Shown piece after piece: positions 8,680-60,803 of a stretch of DNA of 64,000 bases. The stretch is from Paraburkholderia sp. HP33-1. GTDB taxonomy: Bacteria > Pseudomonadota > Gammaproteobacteria > Burkholderiales > Burkholderiaceae. The translations under genes and the position numbers were made by a program. The notes under the pieces were generated by a model. That model had not been told where the DNA came from, made no database searches, and saw only the letters and a program-made list of their open reading frames with translations. Location of the stretch: positions 1,364,001 through 1,428,000 of the forward strand of contig NZ_JAJEJR010000001.1 of the NCBI RefSeq assembly GCF_021390595.1. Direction: 5' to 3'. Position 1 is the stretch's first letter. Every line of letters begins with the position of its first letter.

Positions 8680-9597
8680 CTACGGCCTTTTCGCCGTCAG
8701 GTACGCGATGCGCGTTGCGCCGAGCTGTTTCCCGCTTTCGAAAATCGCCCGCATTCGACCTTCCAGGAAGCCTCGCTCCTCACGCGTAAATTGCGTCTCG
8801 AAGATTTCTTCGAGGGTGGGTGCCAATGGGTGAGGTGAAGTCCGAAGAAACGTTTCCCAGGGCAGACACTCCTCGGTTTGCACATCGATGTGCAATTCCA
8901 GATGAATGTCAGTGAATCCCGCGTCGATGGCGAACCGGACAAGGTCGCGCTCACCGTAGTTCGTCATGGGCAGCGAGCGCGCCTTTTCTTCGGTGTCGGG
9001 GAATTGTGCTGCCCGGCATCGGAGCAGCAGGGGAAAGAACGGGTCATCGGTCTGGATCGCGCGTGTGTCGATCAACCGCTTGAGCATGCAAACCTCGAGC
9101 GCTTCGTCGCGCAGAATGGGCTCCGCGATGGCGAAGCGGCCGCCCGGTCTGAGTATGCGGTAAAGCTCACGCATGGCCGCGGGCTTGTCTTGCACGTACG
9201 CCAGAACCGCGCGCATCACGGCCGCATCGGCAGCTTCGTCGGCAATACCTTCCAGATTCTCGGCGGAGCAGTGCAAATACGCACATTGCCCGCTCACACC
9301 CAGAGTCCGGGCCGTCTCTTGCGTGTGCCGGAGCAACGGCGCCGAAATATCTGTCATCAGCACCCGGATCGAGACGCCACCTCGTTCGATCGCCCGAAAC
9401 CCGACGAGACCATCACCAGTGCCGATATCGGCCAACGTCATTCCCGGACGAAGGTGAACGAAATCCAGGACACGGTCCGCGTACCTCGTGATATCGGCGC
9501 GGACGTTGTCCTGATGAGCGCGATCGTCGCCATGACGCAGGCTGAGAATCCATCTGGACCAGTTGTCGTGAGTGACGTCGTTCGTGAGTGGGGACAA
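8680..9597 (-). CDS. Class I SAM-dependent methyltransferase
   Basis: About 305 residues with the Rossmann SAM-binding motif I LADIGTGDGLVGF, an acidic residue ending strand 2 (RVLMTDIS), and the strand-4 region AADAAVMRAVLAYV. The frame opens earlier (TTG at 9684). I prefer the TTG at 9597 because AGGAA sits 7 bp before it and the resulting start (SPLTNDVTHDNWSRW) precedes the conserved core. C-terminal residues ~200-300 probably form a substrate cap. The substrate is not evident. It converges on the gene at 7259 and has no operon partner. Confidence 0.82.
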   Translation of the reverse strand: MSPLTNDVTHDNWSRWILSLRHGDDRAHQDNVRADITRYADRVLDFVHLRPGMTLADIGTGDGLVGFRAIERGGVSIRVLMTDISAPLLRHTQETARTLGVSGQCAYLHCSAENLEGIADEAADAAVMRAVLAYVQDKPAAMRELYRILRPGGRFAIAEPILRDEALEVCMLKRLIDTRAIQTDDPFFPLLLRCRAAQFPDTEEKARSLPMTNYGERDLVRFAIDAGFTDIHLELHIDVQTEECLPWETFLRTSPHPLAPTLEEIFETQFTREERGFLEGRMRAIFESGKQLGATRIAYLTAKRP

Positions 9598-54042: not shown

Positions 54043-54357
54043 TCAAGCTCGTGGAGCATAGACGTTGCACCAGCCGTCAGCCGAAACGGATTTGCCCGGG
54101 AACATCGGGCACGGTCCGGCGGTGTCACCAGATGCGCCGGTGTAGAAACGACAGTTCGCGCAGTTCTGACCCGCGTGGTATTTGGGGAACTTAGCTGCGT
54201 CGACGCTGCTCGCCTTCGCACGATAGCCGAGTGAGCCGGCTGTGGCGTCGTTTTCATCGACGAGGGGTGGCGAGGCGAACGCGACGTCGGCGCTCGCGAG
54301 CGCGGCGCACAGGCCAGCGGCCTGGAGAATGAAGTGTCTGCGAGTGTGAGAGACCAT
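54043..54357 (-). CDS. High-potential iron-sulfur protein (HiPIP)
   Basis: A 104-residue HiPIP carrying one [4Fe-4S] cluster. It has a twin-arginine signal (RRHFILQAAGL), as expected for a cofactor loaded before export. Cluster ligands are Cys66, Cys69, Cys83 and Cys97 (NCANCRFY, GPCPMFPGK, GWCNVY). It lies 86 bp after the cytochrome-fusion gene on the same strand. It is therefore a candidate electron carrier from the PQQ dehydrogenase module. Confidence 0.93.
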   Translation of the reverse strand: MVSHTRRHFILQAAGLCAALASADVAFASPPLVDENDATAGSLGYRAKASSVDAAKFPKYHAGQNCANCRFYTGASGDTAGPCPMFPGKSVSADGWCNVYAPRA

Positions 54358-54443: not shown

Positions 54444-55733
54444 CTAGTGGCGCGGTCCAGCGTTCAGCGGCGTCTTCGACGATTGCGCGGCCTGCGCGGT
54501 CAGCTTCTCGCTGCCGGTGTCGTAGCCATTCGTGTAGAGCAGGAAGGCCATCAGGTCGGCGTACTCCTCGTCACTCATCTTGCCGGGATGATCCGCTGGC
54601 ATATTGGTTGACATGTACTGATAGATGCCGCCGATCGTCAGATGCGAGTTCGACGCCGGCGCGAATGCCGGGCCGCTCAACGATGGCGCGGTGTTGCCTT
54701 CGAGCTTCTCGCCGTGGCATTTCGCGCACGAATCGGCATACAGATGTTCGCCGTGCGCGACCTGATCGTGATCGAACGAGGGCGTGTCGGCGCCCGCCGC
54801 AACCTTGATGAAGCCGCCCGCGGCCGGCATGCCGCTCACGTGCCATACGTCCGCGCGCGGCAACGTCTGGGTCGGGCCGTCAAGATAGCGCGCGGGGCTG
54901 CGCACGAGGCTCGCCTGCGAAACGGGCGTGGCCGGGGTAGCCGAGCCAGTCGCGTGGCTGGTCGGCAGCGCCCACTTGCGGGTCAGCGCGGCGAGCCGGC
55001 CGTCGTTGCGCAGGCGCGTGAGCGCGTCGTCGATGCGCTGTTGCAACAACTGTGTGCCGGGCCCAGACGCGAACACGAGATTCCAGTCGGCATAGGGCGA
55101 ATCGGCGACGGCAACGTCGAAGTGCTGCTGTGGATGAGCGTGCCGGTACGCCACCACGGCCGGGTACCAGACGATCGCCCGTTGGGCGCGTCCTTTCGCG
55201 AGTGCGTCGACGGTCAGATCCGAGGTGACTTCCAGATCGAACCGGGCGTTCTTCTGCTGAACCGCGATCAGCTGCGACGGGCTCGACCACGTGGCGGCGA
55301 TGGTGATCTTGCCGTCCGGCGCCGCGACGCTGGCGTTGGTTGCATGGGCGCCGCGCAGCGTGACGCTCACATAGCCCGAGTGCAGATAGCCCTGGGAAAA
55401 GAGCAGGTGCGAGTCGGAGCCGTCGGCCACGCTCGAACGCGGAAAGCCCGCGATCACATCGCAGTTGCGCTGCAGCGATTTCGCGAGTTCGTGAGCGGAG
55501 ATGCCGTCGTCGCCGCCGTCGTCGTCGATGCCGCGCGAGGCGAATGTGGCGGCGACGCCCGCGGTGCTCAACACGGCGCGCGCCACGGATTTATCGAGTT
55601 CAGCCGAGGGGCTGCCGGGCAGCGTGCACACGCGTACGCTGGAGGATGCTTGCGCGGGAGACTTTGCGGCAACATGAGCGGCGCCGGCGACGAGCGCGCT
55701 GGCGAGCGCAACGTGAGTGAGTCGAATGTTCAT
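54444..55733 (-). CDS. Fusion of XoxJ/MxaJ-like binding domain and cytochrome c
   Basis: A 429-residue periplasmic protein with a signal peptide (HVALASALVAGAAHVAA). Residues ~30-260 are a solute-binding domain of the quinoprotein-dehydrogenase-associated type (RVCTLPGSPSAELDKSVARA, ISAHELAKSLQRNCDVIAGF). Residues ~320-410 are a cytochrome c: heme site CAKCH (336-340) with axial Met378 (STNMPADHPGKM). In known methanol systems MxaJ/XoxJ and MxaG/XoxG are separate proteins. The gene follows the PQQ dehydrogenase by 111 bp, so it is the likely partner accepting its electrons. The continuous frame excludes a sequencing join artefact by eye. Confidence 0.9.
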   Translation of the reverse strand: MNIRLTHVALASALVAGAAHVAAKSPAQASSSVRVCTLPGSPSAELDKSVARAVLSTAGVAATFASRGIDDDGGDDGISAHELAKSLQRNCDVIAGFPRSSVADGSDSHLLFSQGYLHSGYVSVTLRGAHATNASVAAPDGKITIAATWSSPSQLIAVQQKNARFDLEVTSDLTVDALAKGRAQRAIVWYPAVVAYRHAHPQQHFDVAVADSPYADWNLVFASGPGTQLLQQRIDDALTRLRNDGRLAALTRKWALPTSHATGSATPATPVSQASLVRSPARYLDGPTQTLPRADVWHVSGMPAAGGFIKVAAGADTPSFDHDQVAHGEHLYADSCAKCHGEKLEGNTAPSLSGPAFAPASNSHLTIGGIYQYMSTNMPADHPGKMSDEEYADLMAFLLYTNGYDTGSEKLTAQAAQSSKTPLNAGPRH

Positions 55734-55844
55734 GATGGTGCGTTCCTGGGATGGCGGGAACACCGCGCCCGCATGGGCTGCGTGCGGGCGCGGAGAGATG
55801 CTACGGCGAGAGTCCGACGCGAAAGACGGTGGTGCGGCGGCTGC

Positions 55845-57572
55845 TCAGCCCCGATCGAGCGCGAACACGTAGAGCGTGCCGCCGCGCGGAACGTCCTTCG
55901 CGACGTCGGCCATCGGGCCGCCCCAGATCGGATTCGCCCCGCCGTAGCCCGCCAGCACGGCCACGTATTCCTTGCCGTCGATTTCGAACACGGAAGGTTG
56001 CGCGACGATGCCGCTCGCGAGTTGCGGGCTCTCCCACAGCACCTTGCCGGTGGACACGTCGAACGCGTACAGATGGCCGTCGAGCGAGCCGCTGAAGGCG
56101 AGGCCGCTGGCTGTCGTGGCGACGCCGCCGTTCCACGGCATCTTGGTCCAGTGGCCCCACAGCTTCTTGCCGGTATTCACGTCGATGGCCTGAAGTTCGC
56201 CATACCCCTGGCTGCCCGGTTCAGGCTGGATCTCAAAGCCTTCGCCGAGGTAGGGCAGGCCCTCCATATAGCTGACCGACTTGCCGGACAGGCTCATGCA
56301 CGCATGCAGCGCGGGCACCACCGCGATGTGCCGCTCGGGATCGTAAGAGACCGACCACCAGTTCTTGCCGCCGAGAAAGCTCGGGCAGGTGTTGATCGTC
56401 GTACCGGCCTTGGGAAACCGGGTTGCGTCCTGCACCGGCTTGCCGTCGGCGGTGTAGCCCGTTACCGAGAGCGCCTTGACGAACGGCTCGGCGTAGATCA
56501 GCTTGCCGGTCTTGCGGTCGATCGCGTGGAAGAAGCCGTTGCGGTCGGCGTGAATGATGGCGTCATACTGCTTGCCCTTGTAGCTGATGCTGGCAAGCAC
56601 CGGCGTATTCACGCCGTCGTAGTCCCACGTGTCGTTACTCGTGTACTGGTAGTGCCACTTCAGGTCGCCGTTCTTCGGATTGAGCGCGAGCAATGAATCT
56701 GAGTACAGATTGTCGCCGGGACGCAGTGCGGCGAGCCACGGCCCCGGATTGCCGACACCCCAGTACAGCGTTTGCGTCGCCGCGTCGTAGGTGCCGGTCA
56801 GCCACGCCGCTCCGCCGCCATGTTCCTGCATGCCGTCGGGCCACGTGTTGCTGCCTTTCTCACCGGCACTCGGGATCGTGTAGCGCTTCCAAAGAATCGA
56901 GCCGTCGTCGGGATTGAGGGCGGCGATATAACCGCGAATCCCATATTCACCGCCCGACGTACCCACCACGATCGCGCCGTCGAGCGCGAGCGGCGCAAGC
57001 GAGAAAGCGTAGCCGAGTCCCGGCTCGAACATCTGCTTCTTCCAGACGAGATTGCCGCTCTGTGCGTCGAGCGCGGCCACTTCGCCGCTCAGCATCGCCA
57101 CGTAGACGTTCTTGCCATACAGCGCGACGCCGCGATTCACCACGTCGCAGCAGGCGGTCTTGAACGATTCCGCGCCGAGCCTCGGCTCGTATTTCCAGAG
57201 CTGCGTGCCGGTTTTCGCATCGAAAGCATAGACGTTGTCTTTCGGCGTACTGACGAAAAGGTAGCTGCCGTTGACGATCGGCGTTGCCTCGAAGCCTTGC
57301 TTGAGATCCGCCGGGAACTGATAGCTCCAGGCCTGTTTGAGCCCGGCGACGTTCGATGCATCAATCTGCTTCAGAGGTGAATGCGACTGGCCGCTGTAAC
57401 TGCGGTAGTAGGTGAGCCAGCCCGGGTCGCTCTGTGCTTGCGAGAGCCGCTCGTAGGTCACGTCGGGATAGTCCGGGGCGGCGTTCACCGGAGCCACGTT
57501 CAGTGCCATCGCAAGCGCGATGCTCGCTCCATAGACAGGCAGCCAGCCTGCGGCGGGCGCAAGGTTCTTCAT
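55845..57572 (-). CDS. PQQ-dependent alcohol dehydrogenase, lanthanide-type signature
   Basis: A 575-residue eight-blade propeller quinoprotein with a signal peptide (ALAMALNVAPVNA). Active-site features: adjacent cysteines Cys141-Cys142 (TACCDVV), metal ligands Glu209 (GGEYG) and Asn275 (GVGNPGPW), catalytic Asp317 and an extra Asp319 in WDYDG. The second aspartate two residues after the catalytic one is the marker of lanthanide-dependent enzymes (XoxF, ExaF/PedH); calcium enzymes carry Ala, Ser or Thr there. Trp-docking repeats (GxLxW) recur. No fused cytochrome is present. A sigma-54 promoter lies 87-102 bp upstream. Substrate is probably an alcohol or aldehyde. Confidence 0.92.
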   Translation of the reverse strand: MKNLAPAAGWLPVYGASIALAMALNVAPVNAAPDYPDVTYERLSQAQSDPGWLTYYRSYSGQSHSPLKQIDASNVAGLKQAWSYQFPADLKQGFEATPIVNGSYLFVSTPKDNVYAFDAKTGTQLWKYEPRLGAESFKTACCDVVNRGVALYGKNVYVAMLSGEVAALDAQSGNLVWKKQMFEPGLGYAFSLAPLALDGAIVVGTSGGEYGIRGYIAALNPDDGSILWKRYTIPSAGEKGSNTWPDGMQEHGGGAAWLTGTYDAATQTLYWGVGNPGPWLAALRPGDNLYSDSLLALNPKNGDLKWHYQYTSNDTWDYDGVNTPVLASISYKGKQYDAIIHADRNGFFHAIDRKTGKLIYAEPFVKALSVTGYTADGKPVQDATRFPKAGTTINTCPSFLGGKNWWSVSYDPERHIAVVPALHACMSLSGKSVSYMEGLPYLGEGFEIQPEPGSQGYGELQAIDVNTGKKLWGHWTKMPWNGGVATTASGLAFSGSLDGHLYAFDVSTGKVLWESPQLASGIVAQPSVFEIDGKEYVAVLAGYGGANPIWGGPMADVAKDVPRGGTLYVFALDRG

Positions 57573-57658
57573 AGTCGTCTCCTGAGTGTTTGTCGATGCA
57601 GTGCCGGGAGAGGCGTCGCCCTTTTTGCGCTGTGTCAATCCGGCTGCGCTGTCGTTAC

Positions 57659-57674
57659 TGCAAGTCACATGCCA
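57659..57674 (-). promoter_or_regulatory. Sigma-54 (-24/-12) promoter of the PQQ dehydrogenase operon
   Basis: On the minus strand TGGCATGTGACTTGCA matches the TGGCAC-N5-TTGCA consensus with exact GG-N10-GC spacing. It ends 87 bp before the dehydrogenase ATG. The divergent neighbour is a sigma-54 activator, which supports the call. The rest of 57573-58007 holds only regulatory sites and no gene. Confidence 0.85.
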
Positions 57675-57749
57675 TTTGCGCGAGCGAGTCCGCACGGGCG
57701 GCGCGCCTGAAAAGTGCGATTGGCGGCATTGCCCGCGCGGCGCTCCATG

Positions 57750-57766
57750 TGTTGCATCCCGGTACA
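57750..57766. promoter_or_regulatory. Candidate activator site 1 (TGT-N11-ACA)
   Basis: TGTTGCATCCCGGTACA, about 76 bp upstream of the -24/-12 element. It shares GTGTTGCATCCCG with a site before pqqA (60049-60061). Confidence 0.6.
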
Positions 57767-57781
57767 ACCGGGGCGATGAGG

Positions 57782-57798
57782 TGTTGAGAAAAATGACA
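57782..57798. promoter_or_regulatory. Candidate activator site 2 (TGT-N11-ACA)
   Basis: TGTTGAGAAAAATGACA, 32 bp (three helical turns) from site 1 and on the same face of the DNA. Its left half (TGTTGAG) equals the reverse-strand left half of the site at 60071-60087. Confidence 0.6.
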
Positions 57799-58007
57799 GT
57801 TGCAGCGCTGCCGCGCCGGGAACGGCCGAAAGATTGCGGGCCATGTGCAACTCGGGGTGAGTCCGCATGTCGCGGCGCGCATCAATTTGCGGTAATACAG
57901 CCTCTCCGGTCTGCGTGGATGCGGCCGTTCAAACCAGGTGGCCCGGAGCTTGCTTAAGAGGACAGGGAAAAGCTTGGCAAGGTACCCGGCTTTCCAGGAG
58001 GGAGACA

Positions 58008-59993
58008 ATGCGCGATGACGTTCACCCGGCCGCGACTCAGACGGCCGTACGGTCCAATGACTCGCCCGCGCCGGCCATTCAGAAAGCGCACGAACGGTCC
58101 GAAACGTTTGGTCTGTGCGCGTCGGCGCGTCCGGACTACGAAGTGCTTTCGAACGCGGGACTCGAACTCAACCGCGAGCAGAACCGGGTGTTATGCGCGC
58201 ACGCAATGCCGGTGATGGAGACGCTGCACGAACAGATCGCCAACACCCAGAGCATGATCGTGTTGACCAATGCCGAAGGGCTGATTCTCCATTCGATCGG
58301 CGACGACGACTTCCTCGCGCGCGCGGAAAAAGTGGCGCTGCGGCCCGGCGCGAACTGGGCCGAGGACCGCCAGGGCACCAATGCGATCGGTACGGCGCTA
58401 GCCGAGCGGTGCGCGATGGTCGTGCATGGGGACCAGCACTACCTGGCGGCAAACCGCTTCCTGACCTGCTCGAGCGTGCCGATTCTCGATCCGTATGGCG
58501 ACGCGATCGGTGTGCTCGACGTGACGGGTGACTACCGCAGCTACCATCAGCACACGATGGCGCTCGCGAAGATGTCGGTGCAGATGATCGAGAATCATCT
58601 CTTCACGACCACCTTCCACGAAACGCTGCAAGTGTCCTTCCATAGTCGTCCTGAGTTTCTGGGCACGCTCATGGAAGGCATCGTGGCGTTTACGAGTGAT
58701 GGACGCTTTCTCTCGGCTAACCGGAGTGCCCAGTTCCAGCTCGGCATGTCGCTCGCCGCGCTGCGCGCGCATACGCTCTCGTCGCTGTTCCAGACCACGA
58801 GCGCGCAACTGATCGATCGCGCGCGCGTGAGCCTCGACCCGCACCTGATGCTCAACGTCAGCAGCGGCGCGCTCGTCTGCGCGCGTGTGCAGTTCAGGCG
58901 GGCGTCGCTGGCCGAAGGCAGCCGCCCGGCCGCCGGGCGCGACGGCGCGCGCGCGGTGACGCGCGAGGATCCGACGCAGACGGCCGCCGGGCTCTCGCGC
59001 CTGAGCTATCTCGACACGGGCGACCCGCAGGTCGCCGCCGTCATTGCCAAGGTCAAAAGGGTGATTGGCAAGGACATTCCGATCCTGATCAACGGCGAGA
59101 CCGGCACGGGCAAGGAGTTGCTCGCACAGGCGATCCACAACGATTCGCCGCGGCACGCCGGGCCATTCGTGGCGGTCAACTGTGCATCGATTCCGGAGAC
59201 GCTGATCGAATCCGAGCTGTTCGGCTACGAGGAGGGCGCATTCACCGGGGCACGGCGCAAGGGCGCGATCGGCAAGCTGTTGCAGGCGAACGGCGGTACG
59301 CTGTTTCTCGACGAGATCGGCGACATGCCGTACGCGCTGCAAGTCCGGCTGCTGCGCGTGCTGCAGGAACGCATCGTCAACCCGCTCGGCTCGACGAGGA
59401 GCATTGCGGTGGACGTCGCGATCATCTGCGCGACGCACCGTGACCTGCGCGAGATGATCACGCAGAACCGCTTTCGCGAAGATCTCTACTACCGGCTCAA
59501 TGGCCTCGTGGTACGTCTGCCGCGGCTGCGCGACCGTACGGATCTGGCGGTCGTGATCCAGAAGATGTTGCTGCGCGAATCGATCGCTTGCGCGAAAGGG
59601 CGGCCGCTTCGCGTCGCGCCCGATGTCATGGCGATGTTCGAGCGCTGTCGATGGCCGGGCAACTTCCGGCAGCTCGGCAACCTGTTGCGCACGGCGGCGG
59701 CGATGGTCGAAGAAGACGGCGAGATCCGGAGCGAGCACTTGCCCGATGACTTCTTCGATGACCTGCGCTGCGGCATTGCGCAGAACTGCACGATGGAGGC
59801 GCCGAGCGCGGCCAGTGCGTTCGTGCCGGAGTGCGCGCGCCTGCAGGACGTGACGGTTTCGGTGATTGCCGCTGCGCTTGCGCGACATGGCGGCAACGTT
59901 TCGGCGGCCGCGCGCGAGCTCGGCGTGTCGCGCAACATGATCTACCGCAAGATGCCCGCCGTCGAGCTGGGTCGTGCCGTGGACGACTTCTGA
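58008..59993 (+). CDS. AcoR-like sigma-54-dependent activator
   Basis: A 661-residue enhancer-binding protein. Residues ~60-210 are a GAF-type sensor (SMIVLTNAEGLILHSIGDD, GTNAIGTALAERCAM). Residues ~335-575 are the AAA+ domain with Walker A GETGTGKE (363-370), the sigma-54 contact loop GAFTGA (410-415) and LFLDEIGDM. The C-terminus has a Fis-type HTH (GGNVSAAARELGVSRNMIYRK). The ATG at 58008 follows AGGAGGGAG. AcoR-type proteins sense acetoin, alcohols or aldehydes. Divergent from the PQQ dehydrogenase and upstream of pqqA. Confidence 0.94.
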   Translation: MRDDVHPAATQTAVRSNDSPAPAIQKAHERSETFGLCASARPDYEVLSNAGLELNREQNRVLCAHAMPVMETLHEQIANTQSMIVLTNAEGLILHSIGDDDFLARAEKVALRPGANWAEDRQGTNAIGTALAERCAMVVHGDQHYLAANRFLTCSSVPILDPYGDAIGVLDVTGDYRSYHQHTMALAKMSVQMIENHLFTTTFHETLQVSFHSRPEFLGTLMEGIVAFTSDGRFLSANRSAQFQLGMSLAALRAHTLSSLFQTTSAQLIDRARVSLDPHLMLNVSSGALVCARVQFRRASLAEGSRPAAGRDGARAVTREDPTQTAAGLSRLSYLDTGDPQVAAVIAKVKRVIGKDIPILINGETGTGKELLAQAIHNDSPRHAGPFVAVNCASIPETLIESELFGYEEGAFTGARRKGAIGKLLQANGGTLFLDEIGDMPYALQVRLLRVLQERIVNPLGSTRSIAVDVAIICATHRDLREMITQNRFREDLYYRLNGLVVRLPRLRDRTDLAVVIQKMLLRESIACAKGRPLRVAPDVMAMFERCRWPGNFRQLGNLLRTAAAMVEEDGEIRSEHLPDDFFDDLRCGIAQNCTMEAPSAASAFVPECARLQDVTVSVIAAALARHGGNVSAAARELGVSRNMIYRKMPAVELGRAVDDF

Positions 59994-60049
59994 GTCAAGC
60001 GGGCCGTTCTCCTCAGCACACCAGTTTGACCCGCGTGCTGTCACACCCG

Positions 60050-60066
60050 TGTTGCATCCCGCAGCA
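60050..60066. promoter_or_regulatory. Degenerate activator site upstream of pqqA
   Basis: TGTTGCATCCCGCAGCA, half a match to TGT-N11-ACA, but its GTGTTGCATCCCG is identical to site 1 before the dehydrogenase. It lies 21 bp (two turns) from the next site. Confidence 0.5.
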
Positions 60067-60070
60067 GCGG

Positions 60071-60087
60071 TGTTCCAAAACTCAACA
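60071..60087. promoter_or_regulatory. Candidate activator site upstream of pqqA (TGT-N11-ACA)
   Basis: TGTTCCAAAACTCAACA within GTGTT-N9-AACAC, a 5-bp-arm palindrome. It lies about 130 bp upstream of the second -24/-12 promoter, a usual distance for enhancer sites. The rest of 59994-60295 contains no gene. Confidence 0.6.
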
Positions 60088-60215
60088 CTGCAACTTTCCC
60101 GAACGCGTCGTGCGGCGACGCGTTCGTGCTGCGTCGGGCGGAAAATTGATGATGTCGTTACCCGCACCTCCGCGAAGACTCGTGCGCGAGACAAACGCGA
60201 CTTGCGTATCGACAT

Positions 60216-60231
60216 CGGCATGTCGTTTGCT
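60216..60231 (+). promoter_or_regulatory. Sigma-54 (-24/-12) promoter of pqqA
   Basis: CGGCATGTCGTTTGCT has GG and GC exactly ten bases apart (GG at 60217-60218, GC at 60229-60230) and the TTGCT -12 block. The start of transcription would be near 60242, about 54 bp before the pqqA ATG. Confidence 0.8.
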
Positions 60232-60295
60232 TTGAAGAGAACGACCGCCCATCAAGTGCGGTTTTTCCATCCAATCGCAATCAAGGAGACACGCC

Positions 60296-60370
60296 ATGCA
60301 ATGGATCATCCCGTCGTACACCGAGGTGCGTTTCGGCTTTGAAGTCACGATGTATATCGCCAATCGCTAA
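60296..60370 (+). CDS. pqqA: PqqA, coenzyme PQQ precursor peptide
   Basis: A 24-residue peptide starting MQWIIPSYTE and ending EVTMYIANR. Glu16 and Tyr20, the two residues that are cross-linked to form PQQ, are in the conserved E-x3-Y frame. AAGGAG lies 8 bp before the ATG. In most genomes it is followed by pqqB, C, D and E; here pqqD follows after about 150 bp, and B, C and E are not found in the window. Confidence 0.95.
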   Translation: MQWIIPSYTEVRFGFEVTMYIANR

Positions 60371-60402
60371 GCGGGCTGCGGCGTGCCGCACGCGGTGCCC
60401 GA

Positions 60403-60524
60403 GTGGCGCCCGGGGCGGCACACGCGATCAACGACCATGAAAATCAAGACTCTTCGCCGGCCTTGCACGATACGGCCTGGGCGCCGGCGCAACTCGATGC
60501 GCTCGAAAGGGCGTGGCCTCCATG
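60403..60524 (+). pseudogene. Short frame between pqqA and pqqD, possible remnant
   Basis: An open frame without an ATG runs from the pqqA stop to a TGA at 60522-60524 that overlaps the pqqD ATG (ATGA). Its last 20 codons read HDTAWAPAQLDALERAWPP, which looks protein-like. It sits where pqqC normally ends. A GTG at 60403 could start a 40-residue peptide. I cannot show that it is a pqqC remnant. Confidence 0.35.
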
Positions 60525-60803
60525 AACACGCGTGACCCGGCCGGCGGCGTGCCGCTGCGCCCGCGCCTGCGCAGCATCTTCCGCTTGCAGTGGGAAGCGG
60601 CGCAGGGCGCCTACGTGCTGCTCTATCCCGAAGGGATGGTGAAGCTCAATAGGAGCGCAGGCGCGATTCTCGCGCGTTGCGACGGAGAGCACGAGCTCGA
60701 CGAAATCATCGGCGAACTGGAACGGCTTTTCAGCACGTCCGAACTTGCGCCCGACGTCTACCGGTTTCTCGATCACGCGCGGCTGCGTGGCTGGCTGGAC
60801 TGA
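60522..60803 (+). CDS. pqqD: PqqD, PqqA peptide chaperone
   Basis: A 93-residue PqqD that binds PqqA and presents it to the radical-SAM enzyme PqqE. Landmarks are PRLRSIFRLQWEAAQGAYVLLYPEG, KLNRSAGAILARCDGEHELDEII and LDHARLRGWLD. I chose the ATG at 60522, which overlaps the preceding frame, over the GTG three codons upstream. No pqqE follows; the next gene is unrelated. Confidence 0.93.
   Translation: MNTRDPAGGVPLRPRLRSIFRLQWEAAQGAYVLLYPEGMVKLNRSAGAILARCDGEHELDEIIGELERLFSTSELAPDVYRFLDHARLRGWLD

Follow-up and report, generated by a model that had tools for sequence, protein, structure and literature searches.

A predicted sigma-54 regulon joining a PQQ-dependent alcohol dehydrogenase to pqqA and pqqD in Paraburkholderia sp. 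HP33-1

Introduction

Sigma-54-dependent activators that regulate genes of alcohol metabolism have been described in Thauera butanivorans and in Clostridiales, and here we set beside them a locus from Paraburkholderia sp. HP33-1, apparently a soil bacterium, in a stretch of 64,000 nucleotides (NZ_JAJEJR010000001.1, positions 1,364,001 to 1,428,000; C1:1364001-1428000 in our contig numbering; hereafter the window) of a 7.35 Mb genome in four contigs. At this locus the gene of such an activator stands between the gene of an alcohol dehydrogenase (ADH) dependent on pyrroloquinoline quinone (PQQ) and pqqA, the gene of the PQQ precursor peptide. In the available parts of PMC8899819 and PMC8784404, BmoR of T. 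butanivorans is an alcohol-responsive sigma-54 activator acting at the promoter Pbmo, where an inverted-repeat site lies 193 base pairs (bp) upstream of the -24/-12 boxes. In the accessible portions of PMC7017808 and PMC6615313, the sigma-54 activators of the Clostridiales, AdhR among them, bear GAF domains, have several sites per promoter and have alcohol dehydrogenase targets; TGT/ACA inverted repeats with a 10-12 bp spacer occur in 15 motif groups, that of AdhR included, and are usual for such activators (PMC6615313).

Four further sources, cited here from excerpts, concern PQQ enzymes and pqq genes. In Azospirillum brasilense Sp7 the PQQ alcohol dehydrogenase gene exaA depends on sigma-54 (as reported in PMC6115532), and fusions to pqqA and exaA rise on the same substrates (PMC12826043). 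The ped cluster of Pseudomonas putida KT2440 has an extra pqqD-II within an alcohol-oxidation cluster, with the full pqq operon elsewhere, and P. aeruginosa has its pqq operon between pedI and yiaY (PMC12997753). Methylophilaceae carry additional pqqA copies beyond the biosynthetic set, with one pqqBCDE set (PMC4109929). Among the papers listed, judged by title, the start of the abstract or the excerpts read, in a collection that leaves most subscription journals uncovered, we found no description of the regulator treated here or of a sigma-54 promoter of pqqA.

Results

The genes, sites and spacings of this locus, together with their conservation in related genomes, suggest that an AcoR/BmoR-like activator very probably turns on both the ADH gene and pqqA-pqqD through sigma-54. 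Sigma-54 promoters follow the consensus TGGCAYG-N4-TTGCW, and matches were scored over its 12 positions; putative activator sites were scored against TGTTSC-N5-GSAACA, also over 12 positions, a consensus that was defined after the sites were seen. The features of the locus are as follows.

54444..55763, minus strand: gene after that of ADH; C-terminal cytochrome c domain (PF13442, PF00034) and a substrate-binding-like N-terminal part (weak GlnH-like match)
55845..57572, minus strand: gene of the PQQ-dependent ADH, methanol/ethanol family, 575 amino acids (TIGR03075, 552 bits; cut-off 480)
57659..57674, minus strand: sigma-54 -24/-12 element of ADH, TGGCATG-TGAC-TTGCA, 12/12, 102 bp before the ATG; conserved
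57750..57766, unstranded: first putative activator site at the ADH promoter, TGTTGCATCCCGGTACA; matches the activator-site consensus, conserved
57782..57798, unstranded: second putative activator site at the ADH promoter, TGTTGAGAAAAATGACA, spaced 32 bp from the first; weak consensus match, from direct reading
57939..57954, plus strand: third sigma-54 element, TGGCCCGGAGCTTGCT, 11/12, 69 bp before the ATG of the activator gene; conserved
58008..59993, plus strand: gene of the sigma-54 activator, 661 amino acids, GAF - AAA+ (GAFTGA) - Fis helix-turn-helix (PF01590, PF00158, PF02954)
60050..60066, unstranded: first putative activator site at the pqqA promoter, TGTTGCATCCCGCAGCA; matches the activator-site consensus with 1 mismatch
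60071..60087, unstranded: second putative activator site at the pqqA promoter, TGTTCCAAAACTCAACA, spaced 21 bp from the first; matches the activator-site consensus
60216..60231, plus strand: sigma-54 element of pqqA, CGGCATG-TCGT-TTGCT, 11/12, 80 bp before the ATG; conserved
60296..60370, plus strand: pqqA, complete precursor of 24 amino acids with E-x3-Y (TIGR02107, 40.2 bits; cut-off 20)
60371..60521, plus strand: scar resembling the start of pqqB (MKIKTL...) and the end of pqqC (...LDALERAWPP*), as read in three frames and judged by eye against intact operons
60522..60803, plus strand: pqqD, PqqA chaperone, 93 amino acids (TIGR03859, 109.5 bits; cut-off 46)

A preliminary description of this DNA had placed GG-N10-GC promoters at 57659-57674 (minus strand) and 60216-60231 (plus strand), TGT-N11-ACA sites at 57750-57766, 57782-57798 and 60071-60087, and an identical 13-mer, GTGTTGCATCCCG, at 57749 and 60049. 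Direct reading gives exactly these positions, and the two promoters agree with the consensus at 12/12 and 11/12 positions. Beyond this, the 13-mer at 60049 overlaps a further putative activator site on the pqqA side (60050-60066), most of the 13-mer making up the left portion of that site, and the third sigma-54 site, pqqD and the pqqB/pqqC operon scar are additions to the earlier picture. Each target promoter thus has two putative activator sites, separated by 32 bp (roughly three helical turns) at ADH and by 21 bp (roughly two) at pqqA, and a counterpart of the second ADH site recurs at a spacing of 32-33 bp in four of the related loci described below (L033, L034, L036 and L040). GAFTGA, the mark of the AAA+ domain that interacts with sigma-54, was read directly in the translation of the activator, whose domain set (N-terminal GAF sensor, AAA+ with GAFTGA, Fis helix-turn-helix) matches the AcoR/BmoR-like type; BmoR has a GAF/AcoR-like layout. 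None of the 25 best of its 26 NCBIfam matches exceeds the cut-off of the profile concerned. The genome has two sigma-54 factor genes, at C1:407492-407959 and C2:1071543-1072010, so a mutant test needs both removed.

To judge conservation, we searched for the activator in 146 related genomes, 90 of which gave a match at E ≤1e-150, and examined 53 activator loci, the window included; pqqA lies downstream in 41. The best sigma-54 match was taken for each region, with ties broken towards the gene. It lies 75-91 bp before pqqA in all 41 activator-pqqA loci and scores at least 10 of 12 in 35 of them; in 37, an activator site with a score of 11 or more out of 12 stands upstream of pqqA (L142 and L193 reach 10, L062 and L186 reach 9). 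Before the ADH gene, a sigma-54 score of at least 10 was found in 29/29 loci, at a distance of 91-119 bp in 25, and an activator-site score of at least 10 in 26/29. Among 31 pqqA loci compared, 14 adjoin this activator and 17 lie elsewhere, and 12 of these 17 have no sigma-54 score above 9 in 300 bp. The earlier proposal of one regulon for the enzyme and its cofactor precursor is therefore supported as a prediction: sigma-54 sites stand at near-fixed distances before both genes, and most loci have activator-type sites ahead of the two genes as well, including those where the ADH gene is not divergent from the activator gene. The proposal is incomplete, since the activator gene has a sigma-54 site of its own, pqqD belongs to the unit, the genome has a second pqqA, and the unit appears to be a remnant of pqqABCDE.

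When up to one mismatch is allowed, the sigma-54 pattern occurs at 121 places in 7.35 Mb, versus 107 for the reversed control, and a single match therefore means little. Three such sites fall in the 2.7 kb from 57573 to 60295, where 0.045 are expected (Poisson P ~1.5e-5), and three sites resembling the activator-site pattern fall in the same 2.7 kb (Poisson P ~2e-7), both values being optimistic because the region and the activator-site consensus were picked after the sites were known. Allowing at most one mismatch, the activator-site pattern is found at 29 places in the genome versus 15 for the control. In 83 congeners the perfect activator site occurs at 112 places versus 47 for the control, and among 75 listed of these 112 places, 16 have an activator homologue within 600 bp. 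We considered and rejected a regulon with members dispersed through the genome: apart from the three places here and one at a paralogue of the activator, the 29 places have, by eye, no convincing sigma-54 pairing, the nearest pairs being ~0.8-1.2 kb apart in an incomplete check that used 100 listed of the 121 sigma-54 places.

The paralogous activator, 77% identical, is encoded at C1:899189-901153. The genome has a single perfect activator site, TGTTCCGCTTCGGAACA, which lies between this paralogue's gene and that of a divergent aldehyde dehydrogenase, and a weak sigma-54 candidate of the aldehyde dehydrogenase gene recurs at -67 or -68 in five loci with this divergent arrangement. The C-terminal helices of activator and paralogue look nearly the same, and the two proteins may share sites.

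In many relatives pqqABCDE stands behind the activator with the same promoter, and shorter stretches show pqqAB(C). The window holds no complete pqqABCDE unit, only pqqA and pqqD with the 151-bp scar between them; comparable scars were seen by eye in L144, L150, L184 and L193. The pqqA-pqqD unit of the window accordingly reads as a remnant of a pqqABCDE operon. On the best activator tree the reduced loci form four separate groups (of 5, 1, 12 and 4 loci), implying four changes on that tree when L183 is taken as reduced; with L183, which has no recognisable pqqD, as a class of its own, there are five changes, four of them forced by supported branches. On the activator tree, named Paraburkholderia loci are placed among those of the genus to which this genome belongs.

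The genes pqqBCDE and a second pqqA lie on contig C2, and the one pqqE of the genome that exceeds its cut-off is the copy on C2. Among 83 congeners, pqqA and pqqE occur in the same 62. In the genomes searched, another pqqE is present for 18/18 reduced loci versus 8/18 full loci (Fisher P 0.0003), after L183 (pqqA only), L062, L063 and L202 (genome content not searched) and L065 (outgroup) had been dropped; the association comprises only 3 independent pairs, and a sign test on it is not significant. That a second pqqBCDE is needed before the operon can be reduced is offered as a lead. In L146 (genome G040), pqqB (9113-9514) has residues 49-220 unmatched inside an otherwise complete pqq operon, in a genome with a second pqqE, a state that looks like an intermediate stage of reduction.

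The second pqqA, at C2 ~1930496-1930570 (L025 14496-14570), is complete, with 24 amino acids, E-x3-Y and a score over the TIGR02107 cut-off; it is preceded by a ribosome-binding site and, 95 bp upstream, by a sigma-54-like site, of which L162, L175 and L182 have similar examples and L161 has none. In the available part of the survey PMC9088363, the pqqA of what is apparently the corresponding region, matched by gene content with genes named from the starts of their reading frames, is called a fragment, a call that the complete second PqqA apparently corrects. Another sigma-54-like site, CGGCATGGAGCTTGCT (C2:1935835-1935850; L025 19835-19850), lies upstream of a gene row that, as named by eye, runs from formylmethanofuran dehydrogenase through cytochrome b561 and a hydrolase to pqqBCDE. 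This island has its own activator, ~41% identical, at C2 ~1919 kb. A further sigma-54-like site, TGGCCTGTCACTTGCA (C2:1910048-1910063; L018 10048-10063), is found where a small divergent gene starts, near a dehydrogenase gene named by eye as xoxF-like. Similar genes for TonB-dependent receptors (by eye) lie near pqqBCDE of this genome (L016 11346-13889) and between the ADH and activator genes of L146 (3531-6485); the receptor is a candidate importer of PQQ or lanthanide, and a comparison of this genome's own receptor protein with solved structures at 1e-10 gave no match.

As to the metal of the dehydrogenase, its WDYDG aligns to WDFDG of the two closest solved chains, 6zcw and 6zcv, and to WDFSG of 1flg. 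An extra Asp two residues past the catalytic Asp is thus present in ADH as in 6zcw and 6zcv, where the ExaA-type 1flg has Ser. An extra metal-binding Asp is the mark of lanthanide-dependent PQQ alcohol dehydrogenases (PedH/XoxF type), and 6zcw and 6zcv are structures that we take to be of lanthanide-dependent PedH. Because WDYDG carries the extra Asp of these two chains, the enzyme is predicted to be a PQQ alcohol dehydrogenase probably of the lanthanide type. The gene of the cytochrome c-domain protein adjoins that of ADH in 10/10 loci (L142-L144 and L146-L152). At 54043-54357 of the window (minus strand) lies the gene of a small exported Cys-rich protein, whose counterpart adjoins the cytochrome gene in L146; it presumably resembles a high-potential iron-sulfur protein and is a possible electron carrier.

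Discussion

We propose that the GAF domain of the activator (58008-59993) senses a signal related to an alcohol or aldehyde; the activator would bind the paired sites of the TGTTSC-N5-GSAACA type and, once bound, switch on sigma-54 RNA polymerase at the ADH and pqqA promoters. The ADH promoter would drive the dehydrogenase and cytochrome genes and the pqqA promoter pqqA-pqqD, and enzyme, precursor peptide and peptide chaperone would rise together, with PqqB, PqqC and PqqE supplied by the second locus on contig C2. The third sigma-54 site would make the activator gene itself sigma-54 dependent, and the next step, an aldehyde dehydrogenase, is probably under the control of the paralogue, which has the same site. 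PqqD is the chaperone that brings the precursor peptide PqqA to PqqE (excerpt of PMC12997753). We infer that the pqqA-pqqD pair must scale with demand, and that it stays in the regulon for this reason.

Several observations weigh against this picture. The loci are related, and the counts are not independent. The six pqqA loci whose sigma-54 score is 9 of 12 do no better than shuffles, so that there position is the argument, and without tie-breaking the best match falls elsewhere in 3/26 pqqA regions (L045, L059 and L060). In the outliers with ADH convergent downstream (L183, L184, L194 and L202) the sigma-54 site is 207-375 bp away and the activator site scores 9-10 of 12. The five of the 17 other pqqA loci not yet accounted for are of the C2-island type, and four of these carry a sigma-54-like site at -94 to -98 (the best match of L161 is at -295); because of these four, such a site is not exclusive to pqqA genes linked to this activator. 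Neither intergenic region holds an IHF-like site with at most one mismatch, and the sigma-54 candidate of the aldehyde dehydrogenase gene scores 9 of 12, not above shuffles. L046 (G052) and L047 (G009) have the activator and an ADH gene with the conserved sigma-54 site, and neither pqqA nor pqqE was found in their genomes; their dehydrogenase may run on imported PQQ. No target genes were seen in the examined stretches of L048, L049 and L051. Removal of the putative binding repeat of BmoR leaves a response like that of the wild type (available part of PMC8899819), which counsels caution in inferring function from repeats.

It is exceedingly improbable that a GC-rich genome produced these sites by chance. 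The loose sigma-54 pattern, which genome-wide barely exceeds its reversed control, would fit such a view; the near-fixed distance in 41 loci, the 12 of 17 other pqqA loci that have no such site and the clustering of the activator sites do not, and positional conservation led us to reject pure chance. The control of the activator gene is more evenly balanced. A sigma-54 score of at least 10 is found at -65 to -95 before it in 38/41 pqqA-linked loci, and the gene is possibly autoactivated through the third sigma-54 site, though we put this somewhat below an even chance; autoactivation is weakened because only 6/41 of these loci have an activator site scoring at least 11 of 12 in the 400 bp that precede the activator gene. 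This disparity between promoter and activator site favours a rival that, taken as a whole, we consider as probable as its negation: that the activator controls pqqA(-pqqD) and ADH and that expression of its own gene depends on a sigma-70 promoter or a different sigma-54 activator, with the third site either serving some other activator or going unused. Against this rival, in the window the third sigma-54 site is preceded by the ADH sites at 157 and 189 bp, within the usual range, and this third site is absent from 5/5 paralogue loci with a divergent aldehyde dehydrogenase gene, though it is present in L200 and L201 (aldehyde dehydrogenase-linked) and in L051. Autoactivation thus fits the window, and other input to the activator gene is about as likely.

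The pqqA-pqqD pair might instead be a decaying leftover, its promoter kept because the loss is recent, with the second pqqA on C2 making PQQ. The second pqqA and the pqqBCDE set elsewhere in the genome speak for this reading, as do the missing pqqD of L183 and the disrupted pqqD frame of L184. We nevertheless regard it as unlikely: pqqA reads complete in 21/21 reduced loci and in L183, pqqD is intact in 20/21, and the pair persists in four separate reduced groups. The ratio of nonsynonymous to synonymous substitution rates (dN/dS) of pqqD is 0.07-0.34 in 10/11 pairs of reduced loci, which share branches (the eleventh, L062/L186, gives 0.92 on few changes), and for the window pqqD it is 0.17-0.23 versus L142-L144 and L150. 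A further reading, to which we give slightly less than an even chance, is a matching of PQQ supply to enzyme demand by induction of only the consumable pair. On this reading the activator-linked sigma-54 pqqABCDE operon would have been whittled to pqqA-pqqD in the four groups of the best tree because the peptide, of which each cofactor consumes one, and the chaperone of that peptide would have to keep pace with the dehydrogenase, and pqqB, pqqC and pqqE would be dispensable from the unit because catalytic enzymes can be shared from a differently regulated copy.

The locus offers a testable regulon for PQQ alcohol oxidation in Paraburkholderia-type bacteria, with three promoters, four activator sites, one regulator and one paralogue. 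If the prediction is true, cofactor synthesis is tied directly to enzyme induction through sigma-54, and the recurrent loss of the other genes from the pqq operon, leaving pqqA-pqqD, would be a natural experiment on the supply-limiting steps of PQQ synthesis.

Each of the systems described at the outset shares a part of this arrangement and departs from it elsewhere. The target of BmoR is the butane monooxygenase operon, and the available parts of PMC8899819 and PMC8784404 mention no cofactor gene. The AdhR systems of the Clostridiales serve alcohol synthesis, and the accessible portions of PMC7017808 and PMC6615313 do not mention PQQ. In A. brasilense, exaA is controlled by a LuxR-type regulator rather than an AAA+ activator (excerpt of PMC6115532), and pqqA is tied to RpoE6, with no sigma-54 promoter given in the excerpt of PMC12826043. 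The ped cluster of KT2440 has other regulators, of which AgmR is named, and no pqqA is tabulated beside pqqD-II in the excerpt of PMC12997753. Methylophilaceae have 3-12 copies of pqqA, the rest being single with one exception, and the excerpt of PMC4109929 mentions no sigma-54 control. The predicted regulon extends the sigma-54 alcohol regulons already known.

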